A DNA stretch of 64,000 nucleotides from Marinomonas colpomeniae (GTDB lineage Bacteria; Pseudomonadota; Gammaproteobacteria; Pseudomonadales; Marinomonadaceae): assembly GCF_014803385.1 (NCBI RefSeq), contig NZ_JACYFC010000001.1:1-64000 (forward strand). The letters are read 5' to 3'. Position numbers and translations under genes: made by a program. Positions 3,866 to 19,865 of this stretch are shown here, one piece after another. The notes beneath the pieces were generated by a model, which saw only the letters and a program-made list of their open reading frames with translations, ran no database searches and was not told the DNA's origin. Every line of letters starts with the position of its first letter. The stretch's first letter is position 1.

Positions 3866-5791
3866 CTAGTCCAATAATACTTCGGCTTCTTCTAACGCTT
3901 CTTGAGCCTCAAACCAAGCTTCTTCACTTTCAGCGAGTGCTTTCTTCCATTTAGCTTCATCACTTAATAAGCTTTGTAATGTTTCTCTCTGTTCTGCTTC
4001 GTACAAAGCGGTGTCAGACATAAGTTCTGATATTTGGTCTAGGTGTTCTTGTGCCTTTAGTACAGATTTTTCGAATTGCTCGATTCTCTTATGAAGAGGT
4101 CGCAACTTCTCTCTAGCTTCGGCTGCTTTTCGACGTTCTTCTTTACGGTCTATTTTTTCGACTTTGCCGACACTAAGTTCGTTCTTTTCAGCCTGATTAG
4201 TATTGGCTTGTCGTGCTTGTAACCATGAATGATAAGCAGGTAAGTCACCATCAAAAGATTGAATCGCATTGTCAGCAACAAGATAAAACTCATCGACAGT
4301 ACTGTTTAATAAATGACGATCATGTGACACCAATAAGATAGCGCCGGGAAACTCTTGTAATGCTTCTGTGAGAGCTTGTCGCATTTCAAGGTCTAAATGG
4401 TTTGTCGGCTCATCAAGCACTAATAGGTTGGGCTTTGTCCAAGAAATAAGAGATAAAGCTAGACGTGCTTTTTCGCCACCAGAGAAGCCTTTTACAGCGC
4501 GTAGTGCATCATCTCCAATAAACCCAAAGCCACCTAGGTAGCGACGAATTTCATTTTCTAATACTTTAGGCGAAAGGCGTTGAATATGGAGCAGTGGCGA
4601 CGCTTCCAAATCTAATGCGCTTAATTGATGCTGAGAAAAGTAACCTATCTTTAGGTTTTCGCCGAGTATTCGATCGCCCGATAAAACGTCAATTTCTCCA
4701 ACAATTGATTTTATTAAAGTTGATTTACCAGCACCATTCGGTCCAAGCAAACCAATACGTTGGCCGTCACGAAGGGCGAAGTTACTGTCCCCAAGCTGGA
4801 TGATTTTTTCACCCGATTCTAATGTATAACCTAAATCAGCTTGTGAGAGGTTTACCAATAGTTGAGATGTTTTTTCAGCCACTGGAATAGAGAACTCAAA
4901 TTGAGAGTCGATATGAGCGGGGCCGATGAGTTCCATTTTTTCGAGCATTCGCAAACGGCTCTGGGCTTGTTTTGCTTTGTCTGCCTTGAAGCGAAAGCGA
5001 TCAACGTATTGTTGCAAATGAGCACGTTTGGTTACTTGTTTCTCATGGCTAGCCTGTTGCTGAGCAAGGTGCTCGGCTCTTTGTCGCTCGTAATCTGAAT
5101 AGTTACCTTTATAGACAGTCAGTCTTTTTTGGTAAAAGTGGACGATATGGCTACAAATAGCGTCTAAGAAATCTCGGTCATGGGAGATCAATAACAAGGT
5201 GCCTGGGTACTGGCGCAGCCAGTTCTCTAACCACATAACGGCGTCTAAATCTAAATGGTTGGTTGGCTCATCCAACAAAAGTACGTCAGAGGGGCACATT
5301 AATGCTTTTGCAAGATTAAGGCGAATGCGCCAACCACCTGAAAAGTCAGATACAGGTTTGCGCATGTCTGTCATTTTGAAGCCTAAACCTTGAAGTAAGG
5401 TTTCGGCTCTTGATTCGGCGGTATAGCCTTGCGCGCTTTCAAATTCGCCTAACCAGTTGGCATGATCGTGATCGTTTCCGCGCTCTTGTGCTTGTGCTAT
5501 TTTGCTTTCAATCTTTCTGAGCCAATCATCGCCATCGAGACAATAATCTAATGCTGTGCGCTGAGTCTCTTCTACTTCCTGCGCCATAAAGGCAATACGG
5601 CGATTGCTTGGTAAAAAAATTTCACCGGTGTCCGCGTGTAATTCACCTTTTATCATAGCGAAGAGTGAGGACTTACCTGCACCATTTGCGCCTATAAGGC
5701 CAACCTTTTGACTTTCGAAAATGGTTAAGTCGGCGTCTTCAAGTAAAAACTGAGTGCCACGCTGTAAACTAACTTCAGAAAATTGGATCAT
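3866..5791 (-). CDS. yheS: ABC-F ATPase, YheS type
   Basis: Soluble ABC-F protein of 641 residues with two ATP-binding cassettes and no membrane segments. Such proteins act on the ribosome, not in transport. Walker A motifs are GANGAGKS (about 34-41) and GPNGAGKS with K356. Both halves carry an SGG signature and LLLDEPTNHLD or LVLDEPTNHLD Walker B motifs. Between the cassettes is the charged arm and linker region, and the last 120 residues form a charged coiled coil (RKEERRKAAEAREKL). Length and layout match E. coli YheS (637). It is a single gene, divergent from hslO. Confidence 0.9.
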   Translation of the reverse strand: MIQFSEVSLQRGTQFLLEDADLTIFESQKVGLIGANGAGKSSLFAMIKGELHADTGEIFLPSNRRIAFMAQEVEETQRTALDYCLDGDDWLRKIESKIAQAQERGNDHDHANWLGEFESAQGYTAESRAETLLQGLGFKMTDMRKPVSDFSGGWRIRLNLAKALMCPSDVLLLDEPTNHLDLDAVMWLENWLRQYPGTLLLISHDRDFLDAICSHIVHFYQKRLTVYKGNYSDYERQRAEHLAQQQASHEKQVTKRAHLQQYVDRFRFKADKAKQAQSRLRMLEKMELIGPAHIDSQFEFSIPVAEKTSQLLVNLSQADLGYTLESGEKIIQLGDSNFALRDGQRIGLLGPNGAGKSTLIKSIVGEIDVLSGDRILGENLKIGYFSQHQLSALDLEASPLLHIQRLSPKVLENEIRRYLGGFGFIGDDALRAVKGFSGGEKARLALSLISWTKPNLLVLDEPTNHLDLEMRQALTEALQEFPGAILLVSHDRHLLNSTVDEFYLVADNAIQSFDGDLPAYHSWLQARQANTNQAEKNELSVGKVEKIDRKEERRKAAEAREKLRPLHKRIEQFEKSVLKAQEHLDQISELMSDTALYEAEQRETLQSLLSDEAKWKKALAESEEAWFEAQEALEEAEVLLD

Positions 5792-6019
5792 AAAAACAAG
5801 AAATCTCTTACCTCTGTAGCGAGGAATAAAATGACGTACTTAAATTTTAAATAGAATGGCTTTCATTTTAGAGTGCTGATGACGTAAACGAAATAGCAAT
5901 AGCGCATATTCCAAGTTTATACACGGTTTAAAGTAGATGAATGACTGGTTCAAGGGTAAAATGGCGACAATTTCAATTTGAAAATTTTATCCGGCTTCGT
6001 GCTAGACAAAGGTGTGCTT

Positions 6020-6895
6020 GTGAATAATTTACCTATTAACGAAATTCAGCGTTTTTCATTTGATAATACGAATGTTCGTGGCGAGCGTGTGCTGTTGAAT
6101 GACGCTTACCAAGAAATAATTAAACGTAAAGAATATCCGTTGCCTTTGGAAAAACTACTGGGGGAGTTTGTGGCGGCGATTGCCTTACTAAGAGATATTA
6201 TAAAAATAGATGGTGTTTTGTCTATTCAAGCGAAAGGTAATGGCTTTTTATCAACATTGATGACGGAATGTGATGAGTTTCAAAACTTACGTGGCATTGT
6301 TCAATGGGATGAAACTCAAGATGTACCTGAAGAGCTACCATTAAAAGAGGTGTTAGCTGGCGGTTACTTAGCTATCACTATTCAACCTCGTAACGGACAG
6401 CGTTACCAAGGCATCGTTGAGATTATTGGCGATACATTATCAGAATGTTTAGAACAGTATTTTTTACAATCTGAACAGCTACCAAGTCGTGTGTGGTTGG
6501 CGGCAAATGGTTCTCAGTGTGGCGGTTTATTTCTACAGCGTTTACCTGCAGAACAAGCTCAATCAACGGATGAAGATGCATGGGAACGCCTTACTCATTT
6601 GGCTTCTACTGTTAAAGAAGAAGAGTTGCTAGGGCTTGAAACAATAGATCTATTGCATCGTTTGTATCATGAGGAAGAAGTTAGAATGTACGAAATGAAA
6701 ACCATGCAATTTGGTTGTTCATGCTCTAGAGAGCGTACATTTGGCGCTGTAATGTCACTTGGTGCTGAAGAAGTGCGTGAGATATTGATCGAGCAAGGTT
6801 GCGTTAAAGTGGACTGCCAATTTTGCGCTGAAAAATATGAGTTTGTTGAGGCCGATTTAATTGCAGCACTCGGTGATCAAGCTCAAACTCATTGA
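6020..6895 (+). CDS. hslO: Redox-regulated chaperone Hsp33
   Basis: Hsp33 is a cytoplasmic holdase that binds unfolding proteins when oxidants release zinc from its cysteine cluster. From the GTG start chosen here the product is 291 residues, against 292 in E. coli. The four redox cysteines fall at C233, C235 (CSCSRER) and C266, C269 (CQFC), each one residue from the E. coli numbers, which supports this start. An AAAGG ribosome site lies about seven bases before it. An upstream in-frame TTG at 5978 would add 14 residues that the family lacks. The substrate-binding half carries RYQGIVEIIGDTL and LHRLYHEEE. Confidence 0.95.
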   Translation: MNNLPINEIQRFSFDNTNVRGERVLLNDAYQEIIKRKEYPLPLEKLLGEFVAAIALLRDIIKIDGVLSIQAKGNGFLSTLMTECDEFQNLRGIVQWDETQDVPEELPLKEVLAGGYLAITIQPRNGQRYQGIVEIIGDTLSECLEQYFLQSEQLPSRVWLAANGSQCGGLFLQRLPAEQAQSTDEDAWERLTHLASTVKEEELLGLETIDLLHRLYHEEEVRMYEMKTMQFGCSCSRERTFGAVMSLGAEEVREILIEQGCVKVDCQFCAEKYEFVEADLIAALGDQAQTH

Positions 6896-6945
6896 ACTTG
6901 ATCATTTGGGCTAATACATAGTTTGAATCTAAAGCATATTTCAGG

Positions 6946-7347
6946 CTAAAACGTGGCGTGATTAATAAGGTCACGCCACGATATCATACCAATGACTTGC
7001 TCTTCATTGTCGATAACAGGAAGGCAGGAGATATCTACACGTTTAAACCAAGCAAGAATCTCTTCTATTGGCGTTTCTGCCTTCACTGAGATTGGCTGGC
7101 GTGTCATAACCTGATGGGCGGCACGGTTTAGTGTATCTAAATCTCTTGGTTGCTCTGATACTCGATCAATAAAAGGGCTAATGATTCGAAGCAAATCTCG
7201 GTCTGAAATGATACCTACCAGTTTACCATTTTCAATAACGGGTAAGTGATGGAATGCGTGGGTCTCTAATATTTTTTTTATTTCTGGAAGGCGTTCATCT
7301 ATGTCGACACTGATGACTGTTTTCGCCATGATATCTTGTGCTTTCAT
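6946..7347 (-). CDS. Two-CBS-domain protein
   Basis: Small stand-alone CBS pair of 133 residues. Each repeat has the usual end motif: GIISDRDLLR (about 54-63) and GMISWRDLIN (about 119-128). Such modules bind adenosine nucleotides and report energy or stress state to partners; the partner here is unknown. The ATG at 7347 is preferred because AGGAA lies just before it; upstream frame would add a hydrophobic stretch with no parallel in the family. A perfect 10-bp stem (6952-6961 with 6971-6980) covers the last codons and may end transcripts that meet those of hslO. Confidence 0.8.
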   Translation of the reverse strand: MKAQDIMAKTVISVDIDERLPEIKKILETHAFHHLPVIENGKLVGIISDRDLLRIISPFIDRVSEQPRDLDTLNRAAHQVMTRQPISVKAETPIEEILAWFKRVDISCLPVIDNEEQVIGMISWRDLINHATF

Positions 7348-7766
7348 CGTTGCGTTCCTCATTGTCTTAATTAGAGAATTCAGTGTGTTTATAGTGAATA
7401 TTGTTATATTAATATAAAAACAAAATCGGAACATGTTTTTTATTAATGTCGTTAAAATTTCTATTTATGCTATTAAAATCATCGAAATGGTTAATAAGTT
7501 AAAAACACATCTGTGAAAATAGCTACAGTCTTCGACTAAGGTCTCAAGACATTACTTTTAAAATCCGTATAATTGTCTCATACCTGCTCAGAATCCTTGA
7601 TAGGTTGTTCGCTATTTGGATTTGCAATATTAATATGCAAGCAAAAGCGTTCTGAGGAGAGGAGTAAGAAAGTAAAGCGGTCTTCTTAAAAGATAGGCTG
7701 TTGGCCAAAAGCCTGTTTTCTAAAACACTCTCAAATTCACAATTAGCTATGACACGGCGAAATTAT
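7348..7766. other. Upstream region of mqo
   Basis: This AT-rich region separates the divergent CBS gene and mqo. A strong purine-rich run GAGGAGAGGAG (7654-7664) looks like a ribosome site, but no good start codon follows at the right distance. An imperfect palindrome TTGCAATATTAATATGCAA lies just before it. I see no further gene here. The mqo frame is open from about 7668, so part of this region may be coding if a TTG (7701) or ATG (7749) is the true start. Confidence 0.4.
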
Positions 7767-14153: not shown

Positions 14154-14529
14154 CTTAGAGAGTTGCTCAAGATAGCTTTTATAATAGTATAAAAAATAGT
14201 CAGTGTGTCTTTTATTATTCCTATTTTATGACATCTTTATATAGGTGAGCGGTAGAGGGTTGATATCATTGTTTGACGTATTATTATTTTTGAAGACATT
14301 AGCTTGGGTAATTTAATGCTTGATAGGACAAAAACTGTACTTATTTTATATTCTCATTAAGCATATTAGTGTCATTGCTATATTAAGGATGATATTGTTT
14401 ACAAATTGTTTACATGGAATAAGACTGAAAAATCGTGTCTTTAATAGATTGAAAGTCTATTCAATATTGCCAATTTGATAACATGAATGATTATTTGTTG
14501 TAAGTAATTCGCTTCAAAAAGGATACCGC
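14154..14529. other. AT-rich divergent promoter region of the tubulin-like gene
   Basis: This 376-base gap separates the small unknown gene and the tubulin-like gene. It contains a tandem nine-base repeat (14395-14414) and AT-rich inverted repeats such as TTTTATAATAGTATAAAA near 14177. No further coding frame is supported. AAAAAGGA at 14516-14523 is the ribosome site for the downstream gene. Confidence 0.4.
14395..14414 (+). repeat. Direct repeat TTGTTTACA x2, 11-base period
   Basis: TTGTTTACA occurs at 14395-14403 and again at 14406-14414, one helical turn apart. Such phased repeats often bind a regulator on one face of DNA. It lies about 115 bases before the tubulin-like gene. No regulator is identified. 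Confidence 0.4.
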
Positions 14530-16557
14530 ATGAGCCAAGAAAATCTCCCAATAGAACATCTCTATTTCACTGAGACGAACCTTGAAAAAATCTTAGAGAA
14601 TTTAGATGTCGTTCGTAACCAAATTCATCCCGATTCTTTAGATGAAAATGGTGATAATGATCAAGTTTTTCCATCGGTTTGCCTGATTGGCTTAGGACGC
14701 TGTGGCTCTAATATTGCTCTGGACGTCGCGTCGTTAGTATACGAAGCAAGAGCGAATTACATGCGCGAAGTGGAAAGCCAAGAAATATTGGATGGCGAGA
14801 ATGAATTTCGTCCAATGCGTTGGATTCGAAAACATTTACCTATGGAAGGAAAAGATGGCTTCAAGCCAGTTTTCTTAATTGAGCCAATTGTTTTATTAGG
14901 TGACTTGGACAAAGATATTGAAGGACGAATTCGCTTCTCTAATCAAGAAGGAAGAATGCAGTTTTTAGACGAATACAAAAAACTGCAAATAATGGATTTG
15001 TCTGAAGTGCATGCTGGTGGTGCTGGTAATGCTCCTATTCTAGGACAATATTTAGCTAAAATTATTTTGAACAAAGATGCGACGACCTTCCAAAATGAAA
15101 ACTGGAAGCAACAGCATTCTTACCTTGTCGATTCTTGCGGCATCAAAGCTAACCAATCGCGTTTATATTTTTATATTTTTAGTGCTGGTGGTGGTACAGG
15201 TTCTGGTATGGCATCTGAATTTGGCCTTGCACAGCAGTTTTCATATTTGAGCAAAACGTTTGACTATCGTTCAGACCAAGCCCAGCTTGCAGATAAGCGT
15301 CACAGCTTTGTTTTTGAGCCTATCTTTACATCTGGTATTTGTATTTTACCAAACATCTCTGGCAAAGGTGTCGAAATTTCAGAAGCGTTGCATATAAATG
15401 CAGGCCGACTGCTAACGAAATACATTTCCGAAGAATGGAATTTTTCGTATAACGAAGAGCGAGACGATGAGCAAGCTCCTGAAGATATGATGGAACGAAT
15501 TCGCCCTTGGAATTCTATGATGTTGATCTCTAATGACATCATGCGTTATGCAGAAGAAGCAAATGGCGGAGATGCGGAGAATATAGATGTAAATACAATG
15601 GAGAAATATGCGAACCAATATATTTCTCAACAAATATTTAACATCCTAACCGCGCAAGCAGTTACAACCGATTATGATAAAGATTACTTCCGCCGCGCAG
15701 GCATTGATATATCAGAAACTATTCGCCTAGATGCGAATGACTTGTTTATGAGTTTAGCAGGCCCAGTCGCTGTTGCGTATGCGGAGAGCGTCGTGAGTGA
15801 AGGTACTCATCAGGACAATGTAGATATTGATGATTTGTTTTGTCGATCTATTGAATTGCCACATTTTAATAACGATACATCTGCAATTGAAGGTGTGAGC
15901 GTATTACCTATTGAGTCTGGTCGATACCGAGAATACATTAAGAACTACCGTAAGAGTGGTTATGATGCGAGTACCTTGAATCATCTGCACTTTTTCAAAA
16001 ACTGTTCCTCTATTGTATCAATTATTTCCTTGCCGAGAGATTACAAACTGTCTTTCACCGCATTGAATCGTCTTAAAATGCATTTGAACCGTTTATGCCC
16101 TAATACAACATTGAAGCGTTATGCTTTGGTGATTGGTGCGTCGGCTAACTTGTCGTTAACAACGCTTATCGCGAAAAGTCCTTGTTTAAGTGATGACTTT
16201 TTAACCTTGATGGTTGCTTATATGAAGCGCTGTTTTGCTCGTGATGAGTATCGATATACGGATGAAATTGATAGCGCTATCATTCAAATGATTCAAGATG
16301 ATGAGTTTGATGAGTCACTGATTGATAAGTACTTTACGGCTTATGAAAATCCAGCAAAAATCCTAGATACGAACTGGTATGCAATTAAGCCGATGTATGA
16401 GAAAAAATATCGTGAATTGATTGATAACAGCAAACGTTTTGTTTCGATTAATGATATTCGCTTAGATATTAATAATGTTAAAAACGCAGTTAAATATCTA
16501 CGAGAAATTTATCGTCATCGCATTAGTAAAACAAGTGTACTTACATTAAATGATTGA
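14530..16557 (+). CDS. Tubulin/FtsZ-superfamily GTPase, large stand-alone type
   Basis: A 675-residue soluble protein distinct from FtsZ. Three superfamily elements appear in order: the nucleotide-binding T1 loop LIGLGRCGSNIA (about 52-63), the glycine-rich T4 signature SAGGGTGSG (218-226), and LDANDLF (400-406). The last fits the catalytic T7 loop, with aspartates 401 and 404 spaced like D209/D212 of E. coli FtsZ. T1 to T4 is about 165 residues, twice the FtsZ distance, so there is a large insertion, and the remaining 270 residues have no recognised domain. No membrane segment is seen. It probably belongs to a bacterial tubulin-like family whose role is unknown. It is a single gene with its own upstream region and terminator. 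AAAAAGGA precedes the ATG. Confidence 0.8.
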   Translation: MSQENLPIEHLYFTETNLEKILENLDVVRNQIHPDSLDENGDNDQVFPSVCLIGLGRCGSNIALDVASLVYEARANYMREVESQEILDGENEFRPMRWIRKHLPMEGKDGFKPVFLIEPIVLLGDLDKDIEGRIRFSNQEGRMQFLDEYKKLQIMDLSEVHAGGAGNAPILGQYLAKIILNKDATTFQNENWKQQHSYLVDSCGIKANQSRLYFYIFSAGGGTGSGMASEFGLAQQFSYLSKTFDYRSDQAQLADKRHSFVFEPIFTSGICILPNISGKGVEISEALHINAGRLLTKYISEEWNFSYNEERDDEQAPEDMMERIRPWNSMMLISNDIMRYAEEANGGDAENIDVNTMEKYANQYISQQIFNILTAQAVTTDYDKDYFRRAGIDISETIRLDANDLFMSLAGPVAVAYAESVVSEGTHQDNVDIDDLFCRSIELPHFNNDTSAIEGVSVLPIESGRYREYIKNYRKSGYDASTLNHLHFFKNCSSIVSIISLPRDYKLSFTALNRLKMHLNRLCPNTTLKRYALVIGASANLSLTTLIAKSPCLSDDFLTLMVAYMKRCFARDEYRYTDEIDSAIIQMIQDDEFDESLIDKYFTAYENPAKILDTNWYAIKPMYEKKYRELIDNSKRFVSINDIRLDINNVKNAVKYLREIYRHRISKTSVLTLND

Positions 16558-16600
16558 TCTAAAAGTTAAAATTTAATCTGAACTAAGCATTTGTATTAAA

Positions 16601-16628
16601 AGGCCACCCAATAGGGTGGCTTTTTTTT
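16601..16628 (+). terminator. Terminator of the tubulin-like gene
   Basis: A perfect 7-bp stem GCCACCC/GGGTGGC with loop AATA is followed by eight T. Confidence 0.92.
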
Positions 16629-16808: not shown

Positions 16809-19800
16809 ATGTCTGAATTTTATTGGTTATTGGTCGCTTCCGTTCTTGTCTTTATGATGCAGGCTGGTTTTTTATGTTTAGAAAGTGGCCGTATACGCAG
16901 TAAAAATAGTATTAATGTCGCAGCGAAAAACATATCTGATTTTATTATATCGACAATTTTATTTTGGACCTTTGGATTTGGAATCATGTTTGGTGATTCT
17001 GTTTTTGGTCTATTTGGTTCCAGTGATTTCCTTTTTGATGAATTACATACACCTTGGCAAATTAGCTTCTTTATTTTCCAGATGATGTTCTGTGGTACCG
17101 CCGCAACATTAACATCAGGTGCTGTTGCTGAACGAATGACATTTATAGGTTACTTAGCCATCACGGTTGTACTAAGTGCTTTTATCTATCCAGTTGTAGG
17201 GCATTGGGTGTGGTCTGGTGCTTATCTTGCTGGTGAGTCTAAAGGTTGGCTGGAAAACCTTGGTTTTGTTGATTTTGCAGGTTCTACTGTGGTTCATTCT
17301 GTTGGCGGTTGGATGGCTTTGTCTGCCATTATGATAATTGGTCCACGCATAGGGCGTTTTGAGCAAGGAATTCGATTATCACCTGGAAATAATCTTCCAC
17401 TGTCCGCATTAGGTGTTTTATTGATTTGGTTTGGTTGGATTGGTTTCAACGGCGGCAGTACTTTAGCATTAACCAACGATGTTCCCATGATCATTCTAAA
17501 TACATTTATTTCTGCTGCATGGGGTGGGCTAATTGCGGCCGGTATTAATTATTATCGTGATGGTTTCATAGATGTTAGTTTCGTACTTAATGGTGCAATT
17601 GCTGGCCTAGTTGGTATAACAGCCTCTTGTCATGTGGTTTCTCCTGGTGCTTCTATCATAATTGGTTCTGTGTCTGGTGTAATAGTATATTACGGTAGTT
17701 TATTGATGGAGCGGTGGCAGTTAGACGATGCTCTTGATGTTGTTCCTGCGCATTTATTTGCGGGTGTATGGGGAACGTTGAGTGTGGCCCTATTTGGTAA
17801 TGCAGAGAGAATTGGTAATGGCTTAGGTTTCTGGAACCAGCTTTGGATTCAGGGTTTTGGGATCGTTGTTATTGGCCTATATTGTTTCTTGGTTGGCTAT
17901 TCTTGTATGTGGTTACTAAATCGTTTCATGCCCTTACGAGCAAGCAAAGAACAAGAAGAGCTAGGGTTAAATGTTGCTGAACATAAAGCGACAACAGAAC
18001 TGCTCGATTTACTTACATCAATGCAGTATCAGCAAAGTAATGCTGATTTTTCTCGGCCTGTACCAGAGGAACCTTTTACTGAAGTTGGACAAATCGCTCG
18101 AAAATATAATCAGGTTATAGATCGTGTGGTTAGTGAAATTGAAAAGCGTGATAATGCGTTAACTTGCTTTCAAGAAAGTGAAATGCGCAAATCCGCCATT
18201 TTAAACTCCTCAATGGACTGCATTGTAACGATTAGCCGATATGGTTCTATTATTGAGTTTAATCCAGCTGCAGAGCGAACTTTTGGGTGTTTGAAAACAC
18301 AGGTTGAAGGTAAAAACTTCATCGATTTGTTTATTCTAGAAGAAGATCAGCAAAGAGTATTTGAAAGCTTAAATTCTGGGTTTGCGTCTTCAGAGGGACT
18401 AATACTTAATCGACGTAACCCCTTTCGTTTACAACGAGATTCAAATAACTGCTTCCCAGCAGAAATAGCGATTACAAAAGTAAATGTTAAGTCATCGCAA
18501 AGCAGTGAATTTACGCTTCATATTAAAGATATGGCTCGCCATGTAAAGTTACAGGAGAGGTTGAGATTACTAGCTTATAGCGACCCCCTAACCAATTTAT
18601 ACAATCGTACATACCTCATGGATGCTCTGGTTAATGCACTGTTGTTTGCTAGCAAGCAAAAAACAGTAGTAGGCTTGTTATTTTTAGATTTAGATAACTT
18701 CAAAATTATTAATGATACGTTAGGGCATAAAGCAGGAGATGAGCTTTTGTGTGAAGTGGCACAACGTTTGAAAGCCGTATCTGACGAGTTTGACATTATT
18801 TCTCGTTGGGGAGGGGATGAATTTGTCTTTTTAATAACAAAGGATGTTACTGCTGAAAGCTTAGAGAAACGCGCCCAGCAAATATTAGAATCAATGCGAG
18901 CCCCAGTTCATCTTAGCGGACAATATCTAACTATCCCGACAAGTATCGGTGTTTCATTTACTGATCAAAAAGATATAGACGCCGAAAAACTTATTCAACA
19001 AGCAGATATTGCAATGTATTGGGCTAAAGACAAAGGGCGTGATAATGCTCAATTTTTCACGCCAAAAATGGCGAGTATTGTGTCGAAAAAGTTCGGCTTT
19101 GAAAAAGAGATTAATGAAGCGCTATTACTCGAACAGTTTCACTTGGTTTTTCAGCCTCAAGCCTTTATGGGAAAAGAAAATATCGTGGCGTTAGAGGCCC
19201 TAATTCGATGGGACCATCCAACTAAAGGAATCATTTCACCTGCTGAATTTATTCCTATTGCGGAAGAATCTAGCTTGATAATGAAAATTGATGAATGGGT
19301 TATTGATCAAGCTTTGAAACAACAGAAATCATGGCAAGATCAGGGCTTAGCGTTAGTTCCTGTTGCAATTAACCTTTCTGGGCGCCACTTAGTTTCTGAC
19401 TCTCTAGTACCTTATATATCTAAGAAATTAAAGGACTATGGTATTAAAGGAGGTCTATTAGAAATCGAAATTACAGAGGGCGTTTTACTACAAGATATTG
19501 AGCGCTGTATTGATGTCATGGCCGAGTTGAAAATATTAAATATAAAAATATCTGTGGATGATTTTGGAACGGGATATTCTTCTCTAAGTTATTTAAAGCG
19601 CTTATCGCTTGATACACTAAAAATCGATAAATCGTTTGTTGAAGAATGTGACCTTCATACGGAAGACACTAGCATCTGTGAGGCGATTATTCATCTGGCT
19701 CGAAACTTAAATCTCACCGTTGTAGCAGAAGGTGTGGAAACAGTCTCTCAAGTTAGGGTATTGAAGTCTTTAGGCTGTGAGATTTTTCAGGGATATTATT

Positions 19801-19865
19801 ATTACAAGCCCATGAAAAATGATCAGATTGTTTGCTTGCTTGCTAAGACTCACTCGGAGGCTTAG
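16809..19865 (+). CDS. Ammonium transporter fused to PAS, GGDEF and EAL domains
   Basis: A 1018-residue membrane protein. Residues 1 to about 385 are a complete Amt channel: FWTFGFGIMFG, the GAVAERM stretch, and the pore twin histidines H163 (VVHSVGG) and H315 (PAHLFAGVWGT), spaced as in AmtB. A linker helix follows, then PAS (about 455-570), GGDEF with intact WGGDEF (668-672) and EAL with EALIRWDHP (796 on), so cyclase and phosphodiesterase sites both look usable. The product-inhibition RxxD site before GGDEF is DEFD, so that feedback is probably lost. Amt fusions to signalling domains are known; here ammonium binding or flux presumably adjusts cyclic-di-GMP. No glnK neighbour. Its end overlaps mrpG by 23 bases. 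Confidence 0.93.
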   Translation: MSEFYWLLVASVLVFMMQAGFLCLESGRIRSKNSINVAAKNISDFIISTILFWTFGFGIMFGDSVFGLFGSSDFLFDELHTPWQISFFIFQMMFCGTAATLTSGAVAERMTFIGYLAITVVLSAFIYPVVGHWVWSGAYLAGESKGWLENLGFVDFAGSTVVHSVGGWMALSAIMIIGPRIGRFEQGIRLSPGNNLPLSALGVLLIWFGWIGFNGGSTLALTNDVPMIILNTFISAAWGGLIAAGINYYRDGFIDVSFVLNGAIAGLVGITASCHVVSPGASIIIGSVSGVIVYYGSLLMERWQLDDALDVVPAHLFAGVWGTLSVALFGNAERIGNGLGFWNQLWIQGFGIVVIGLYCFLVGYSCMWLLNRFMPLRASKEQEELGLNVAEHKATTELLDLLTSMQYQQSNADFSRPVPEEPFTEVGQIARKYNQVIDRVVSEIEKRDNALTCFQESEMRKSAILNSSMDCIVTISRYGSIIEFNPAAERTFGCLKTQVEGKNFIDLFILEEDQQRVFESLNSGFASSEGLILNRRNPFRLQRDSNNCFPAEIAITKVNVKSSQSSEFTLHIKDMARHVKLQERLRLLAYSDPLTNLYNRTYLMDALVNALLFASKQKTVVGLLFLDLDNFKIINDTLGHKAGDELLCEVAQRLKAVSDEFDIISRWGGDEFVFLITKDVTAESLEKRAQQILESMRAPVHLSGQYLTIPTSIGVSFTDQKDIDAEKLIQQADIAMYWAKDKGRDNAQFFTPKMASIVSKKFGFEKEINEALLLEQFHLVFQPQAFMGKENIVALEALIRWDHPTKGIISPAEFIPIAEESSLIMKIDEWVIDQALKQQKSWQDQGLALVPVAINLSGRHLVSDSLVPYISKKLKDYGIKGGLLEIEITEGVLLQDIERCIDVMAELKILNIKISVDDFGTGYSSLSYLKRLSLDTLKIDKSFVEECDLHTEDTSICEAIIHLARNLNLTVVAEGVETVSQVRVLKSLGCEIFQGYYYYKPMKNDQIVCLLAKTHSEA

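Follow-up and report, generated by a model that had tools for sequence, protein, structure and literature searches.

What is the large, free-standing gene of Marinomonas colpomeniae that encodes a tubulin-superfamily protein but is not ftsZ? The gene lies in a 64,000-nucleotide stretch of DNA (positions 1 to 64,000 of contig NZ_JACYFC010000001.1; hereafter the window), and its features are collected in Table 1. In a 2010 survey, Makarova and Koonin named a proteobacterial family of the type of PFL_1302 as FtsZl2 (PMC2875224). As described there, these proteins display a GGGTG(S/T)G loop, inserts between T1 and T4, the T1, T4, T6 and T7 motifs together with H7, and a C-terminal region of ca. 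300 amino acids with mixed alpha/beta structure and no known domain; they coexist with FtsZ, have no linked genes and had their role left open, and the species of the alignment (Figure 1 of the survey) include Chromobacterium, Marinomonas and Pseudomonas fluorescens (PMC2875224). By its sequence, the window gene fits this published description and would belong to the already described FtsZl2 rather than to a new family. The FtsZl2 of this genome could hardly be any other gene because no protein matches Pfam Tubulin_2 (at E<=0.001), a single one, FtsZ itself, matches Pfam Tubulin, and a third GGGTG[ST]G site is absent. No functional study of FtsZl2 or PFL_1302 was found in a search of the open literature.

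Table 1. Features of the FtsZl2 locus, with positions in the window (A1, alignment of 35 rows).
Feature	Position	Strand	Basis or remark
FtsZl2-type tubulin-superfamily gene, 675 aa, ATG start	14530..16557	+	ORF and homologues
T1 loop GLGRCGSN, residues 54-61	14689..14712	+	Invariant except L55 (A1)
T2-like VLLGDLDKDIEGRIR, residues 121-135	14890..14934	+	Beta-tubulin counterpart AILVDLEPGTMDSVR
T3-like GGAGNAPILGQYL (contains GAGNAP), residues 163-175	15016..15054	+	Beta-tubulin counterpart SGAGNNWAKGHYT
T4 glycine-rich loop GGGTGSG, residues 220-226 (AGGGTGSG 219-226)	15187..15207	+	Invariant G220-G226 (A1)
SNDIM, residues 334-338	15529..15543	+	Invariant (A1); may correspond to where FtsZ strand S6 ends
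Probable H7 region VNTMEKYANQYISQQIFNILT, residues 354-374	15589..15651	+	Nearly invariant (A1)
T7-like RLDANDLF, residues 399-406, with D401 and D404	15724..15747	+	Invariance and position
C-terminal region, residues 407-675	15748..16554	+	Mixed alpha/beta followed by helices in the model; no domain recognised
Shine-Dalgarno-like AGGA	14520..14523	+	Sequence; kept in most aligned Marinomonas upstream regions
Conserved upstream element catattagtgtcattg...aaggatgatattgtt	14362..14402	+	Possible promoter or operator
Intrinsic terminator	16598..16625	+	12-pair stem and T-run

The original prediction, made from the DNA letters alone, had placed T1, T4 and a T7-like loop in this order along the protein, and all three were located in the ORF accordingly, invariant but for L55 in T1. 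Conservation was read from two alignments of 35 rows (A1; 58-91% identity to the window protein) and 66 rows (A2), and the full homologue set comprises ca. 150 loci, many of which are one gene fetched twice from two collections. Invariant blocks in A1 are G54, G56-N61, G220-G226 and R399-M407. In a loop scan with the family profile, residues 54-61 are the top position for both tubulin T1 (5.4 SD) and FtsZ T1 (4.7 SD); the T2-like segment, with G124, D125, L126 and D127 invariant in A1, is the top position for tubulin T2 (4.0 SD), and the T3-like segment is that for tubulin T3 and FtsZ T3 alike (4.8 SD each). The T4 loop scores 8.1 SD to tubulin T4 and 7.5 SD to FtsZ T4. Its signature is not a chance occurrence because the pattern GGGTG[ST]G is found at only two sites of the whole 3.7-Mb genome, the FtsZl2 gene and ftsZ, while the same pattern read backwards gives none in the whole-genome scan. 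The predicted doubling of the T1-T4 distance holds relative to FtsZ (166 residues vs. ca. 88 in the genome's own FtsZ) but not relative to tubulin, where the factor is ca. 1.3.

In profile searches, the window protein itself stays below both relevant cut-offs, with 12.0 bits against Pfam Tubulin (E 0.26; cut-off 33) and 12.3 bits against Tubulin_2 (cut-off 27; a weak match around T3-T4), whereas at a loose threshold 35/35 members match Tubulin (best E 1.9e-4) as well as Tubulin_2 (best E 1.7e-3). No family of Pfam, NCBIfam, PADLOC or PHROGs matches the window protein above cut-off, and sequence searches of the PDB returned nothing for the single query and only chance matches to ribosomal L23 for the profile query. 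An hhalign comparison with FtsZ (E ca. 0.012) spans T3-T4 only, and narrow HMMs could not tell FtsZ from chance when run on a decoy set.

The best profile sites for the T1, T2, T3 and T4 loops of alpha/beta-tubulin fall at 53, 121, 163 and 216, i.e., in the correct order. With T4 excluded, the T1-T2-T3 chain over residues 1-212 gave Z values of 6.5 (0/500 shuffles) and 7.3 (0/200) against tubulin, compared to 4.3 and 4.7 against FtsZ, with some bias possible in that the loop windows were chosen from general tubulin knowledge after the resemblance had been noticed; over the full length, the values were 5.1 and 3.7, respectively. A control set of 41 unrelated families reached maxima of 2.6 with tubulin loops and 4.2 with FtsZ loops, so the tubulin-loop match stands out while the FtsZ-loop match alone does not, and FtsZ itself scored with tubulin loops attained a Z of only 0.8. 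With single subunits scored on the family profile in narrower and wider windows, Z ranged from 3.5 to 8.6 for beta/gamma-tubulin and from 1.2 to 3.2 for alpha-tubulin (the beta-tubulin letters used are 100% identical to PDB chain 6i2i_B). The T1-T2-T3 loops of FtsZl2 look more like those of beta/gamma-tubulin than like those of FtsZ. Judged by these loops, FtsZl2 is a member of the tubulin superfamily, with the predicted nucleotide-binding loops T1-T4 present in tubulin order. The original assignment to this superfamily but not to FtsZ is upheld.

A complete GTPase signature had been claimed, which goes too far: its T1-T4 part is solid, but similarity across T6-T7 does not rise above shuffles: the score of the T6-H7-T7 chain was reached by 214/500 shuffled sequences against tubulin and by 405/500 against FtsZ. 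Measured by the motifs described for FtsZl2, T1 is clear, and the T6, H7 and T7 segments are invariant with similarity not above chance. SNDIM ranks just second among the sites for the FtsZ S6 motif, without statistical support, and the H7 region is a helix in both AlphaFold models at low confidence. The weak point is the T7 assignment of RLDANDLF, which would follow from position and invariance and not from above-chance similarity. Lack of conservation of its two acidic residues in homologues had been set beforehand as a refuting outcome, and the claim withstood this test, D401 and D404 being invariant in 35/35 rows of A1 and 66/66 rows of A2; a second such stretch, NVDIDDLF at residues 430-437, is less conserved.

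For the C-terminal ca. 270 residues, the original prediction of no recognised domain agrees with our searches, in which no Pfam domain was above cut-off over 407-675 of the window protein or in the 35 members. Against the FtsZ C-domain chain, this region gave a Z of 4.1, but in a register split over a wide span, and Z in local alignments ranged from ca. 1.6 to 3.2; chain scoring, local alignment and Foldseek yielded no convincing counterpart of the second FtsZ or tubulin domain. Residues 485-560 had seemed to align well by hand with the C-terminal domain of FtsZ, but this alignment was dropped since scoring finds another register. AlphaFold modelled the whole protein with a pLDDT of 45 (shallow alignment, mean column identity 73-78%) and residues 352-675 with a pLDDT of 65.8 and a pTM of 0.66 as mixed alpha/beta (shallow alignment as well). 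A predicted structure without the two-domain tubulin fold had been the other refuting outcome; with Foldseek, neither of these weak models has a PDB match at E<=0.001, and with alignments so shallow this does not amount to evidence against that fold.

The protein could also bind GTP through a tubulin-type pocket as a monomeric or dimeric switch that does not polymerise, with the inserts and the C-terminal part in place of filament contacts, and such a switch would be in keeping with support for T1-T4 but not for the T6-T7 half and the second domain, with the large inserts and with the failure to find a tubulin-like fold for residues 352-675. However, RLDANDLF with its two acidic residues does not vary in any homologue, as for a catalytic interface loop, and most known members of the tubulin superfamily polymerise. 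We regard a non-polymerising switch as a rather unlikely alternative to the GTP-dependent polymer that we favour.

The FtsZl2 gene is located between ppx and a gene encoding an Amt-GGDEF-EAL protein. As originally proposed, it is a single gene with its own control region and terminator (Table 1), and it lies apart from cell-division and plasmid genes: ftsZ lies on this contig at a distance of ca. 1.08 Mb, the locus is chromosomal, and plasmids gave no matches. The upstream element is kept in most Marinomonas upstream regions despite diverging flanks, and terminator-like stems of differing letters follow the gene in the Marinomonas relatives shown. The GC content of the gene is about that of its neighbours. 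The survey of relatives also bore out its stand-alone nature, as neighbours are common within each lineage but differ between lineages and none is fixed. The product of the adjoining Amt-GGDEF-EAL gene (16809-19865; 1018 aa) resembles an ammonium transporter and carries fused GGDEF and EAL parts. We rejected a functional link to GGDEF/EAL neighbours since most matches are one syntenic Marinomonas Amt-GGDEF-EAL gene, which also occupies the site in two genus-mates without FtsZl2 (L149 and L151). As a separate observation, a pfkA-like gene lies beside or near FtsZl2 in Aliagarivorans, Agarivorans, Celerinatantimonas and genome G786 (L039, L040, L104 and L146), a setting common to this lineage.

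FtsZl2 is confirmed as a single-copy, chromosomal gene that is patchy among gammaproteobacteria, has been transferred between genera and is sometimes broken. Within the genus, it is present in 22/36 genus-mates and absent from 14/36 (23/37 with the gene when the window's own genome is counted). Beyond the genus, it was found in 2/369 genomes of a class sample (single-protein query), 9/398 of a phylum sample (profile), 31/395 genomes of the order of G786 and 8/119 of the family of G663, and genomes from another family of the order carry full-length homologues; each intact genome has a single copy. A scan of genome contigs with six exact peptides hit only Pseudomonadota, and the whole-genome searches were confined to this phylum. 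Searches of plasmids, phages and viral contigs gave no matches that would indicate an origin there.

Every one of the 14 genus-mates lacking the gene has the ppx anchor. The ppx regions of 13 of them were inspected (G023 was left out), and FtsZl2 occurs nowhere in these. At one empty site (L148), ppx is followed by a small flgM-like gene and then Mnh genes; at two others (L149 and L151), the Amt-GGDEF-EAL gene and then Mnh genes follow; and at the remaining ten, rho and ppx are the sole anchor proteins with a match and the region downstream of ppx differs. FtsZl2 is dispensable, as indicated by its absence from these 14 genomes, by intact flanks at three empty sites and by its disruption in G786 and G914, the latter containing fragments. 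The broken copy of G786 (L146, ca. 4900-7600) has an SGNH-hydrolase-like ORF between its pieces and is flanked by sucCD-like and pfkA-like genes. In the tree, most genera hold together, but a Paraglaciecola copy falls within the fully supported placement in the Marinomonas clade, and next to it, less well supported, is a Celerinatantimonas copy. The Paraglaciecola marina copy (L033) is 88% identical to the window protein, pointing to interfamily transfer or a mislabelled record. Compared to the M. profundimaris copy, dN is 0.045 and dS ca. 2 (near saturation), and FtsZl2 is, on the evidence of its sequence, functional where present and under strong purifying selection.

Two further explanations were weighed. 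A second division-related protein working directly with the FtsZ ring would be of the same superfamily and share its genome with FtsZ, but FtsZl2 is absent from many close relatives and far from ftsZ, and a direct division role was also judged unlikely by Makarova and Koonin (PMC2875224); we consider it very unlikely. Likewise very unlikely is a role of this one gene in defence, or another mobile accessory role, with a tubulin-like fold, which would suit a patchy, horizontally transferred, dispensable single gene but is at odds with the lack of matches in PADLOC and on plasmids, phages and viral contigs, the same position of most Marinomonas copies and 58-74% identity across distant genera.

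FtsZl2 is probably an accessory, dispensable and self-contained GTP-dependent polymer beside FtsZ, with GTPase activity and polymerisation both inferred. Its loop sequences suggest that GTP is most likely bound in a tubulin-type pocket formed by T1-T4. By analogy to the superfamily, subunits would assemble head to tail, with the acidic residues in RLDANDLF probably reaching into the pocket of the neighbouring subunit to trigger hydrolysis, while the inserts and the C-terminal extension may set filament geometry and partners. Because its gains and losses involve this one gene and no fixed neighbours, FtsZl2 most likely works by itself or with proteins that the majority of its hosts possess, as an accessory cytoskeletal element. 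More speculatively, and in our view rather doubtful, FtsZl2 might be a bacterial branch with a beta/gamma-tubulin-type pocket, i.e., a so far unplaced protein that is closer to tubulin proper and works as a free-standing gammaproteobacterial filament system. The tubulin-like loops together with a wide, patchy and selected distribution make FtsZl2 worth an experiment, and since Marinomonas, Aeromonas, Rheinheimera and the other genera that have it include culturable members, it is a convenient starting point for studying what may be an unexplored bacterial filament. With these loops, it would also be well suited to testing ideas on the separation of tubulin and FtsZ.

How does FtsZl2 compare to known systems? 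TubZ and PhuZ are plasmid- or phage-borne, a setting in which our searches found no FtsZl2. With FtsZl1 (Pfam Tubulin_2), it shares a weak sub-cut-off match around T3-T4, and no operon of the FtsZl1 type (vWA, GTPase, OmpA or kinase genes) is present in the window and no neighbours are shared across lineages. Like FtsZ, the window protein has the T1, T3 and T4 pattern in order and a T7-like loop, but it differs by its length of 675 aa, by GLGRCGSN in T1 where FtsZ has GVGGGGGN, by an FtsZ C-terminal domain not above cut-off, and by being encoded by a dispensable gene outside the division cluster. Beta/gamma-tubulin shares T1 GxCG, T2 DL[E/D], T3 GAGN and T4 GGGTGSG with it, whereas long inserts, an R replacing the T7 asparagine, a second domain that is not recognised and the lack of whole-length similarity set the window protein apart, and alpha-tubulin matches weakly. 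From FtsZl2, compared by the published family description, we found no difference: the window protein has the GGGTG(S/T)G loop, the T1-T4 inserts, T1, T4, T7-like and H7-like regions and a C-terminal part of ca. 270-300 aa without known domain, and its gene has unconserved neighbours in a genome that also encodes FtsZ.
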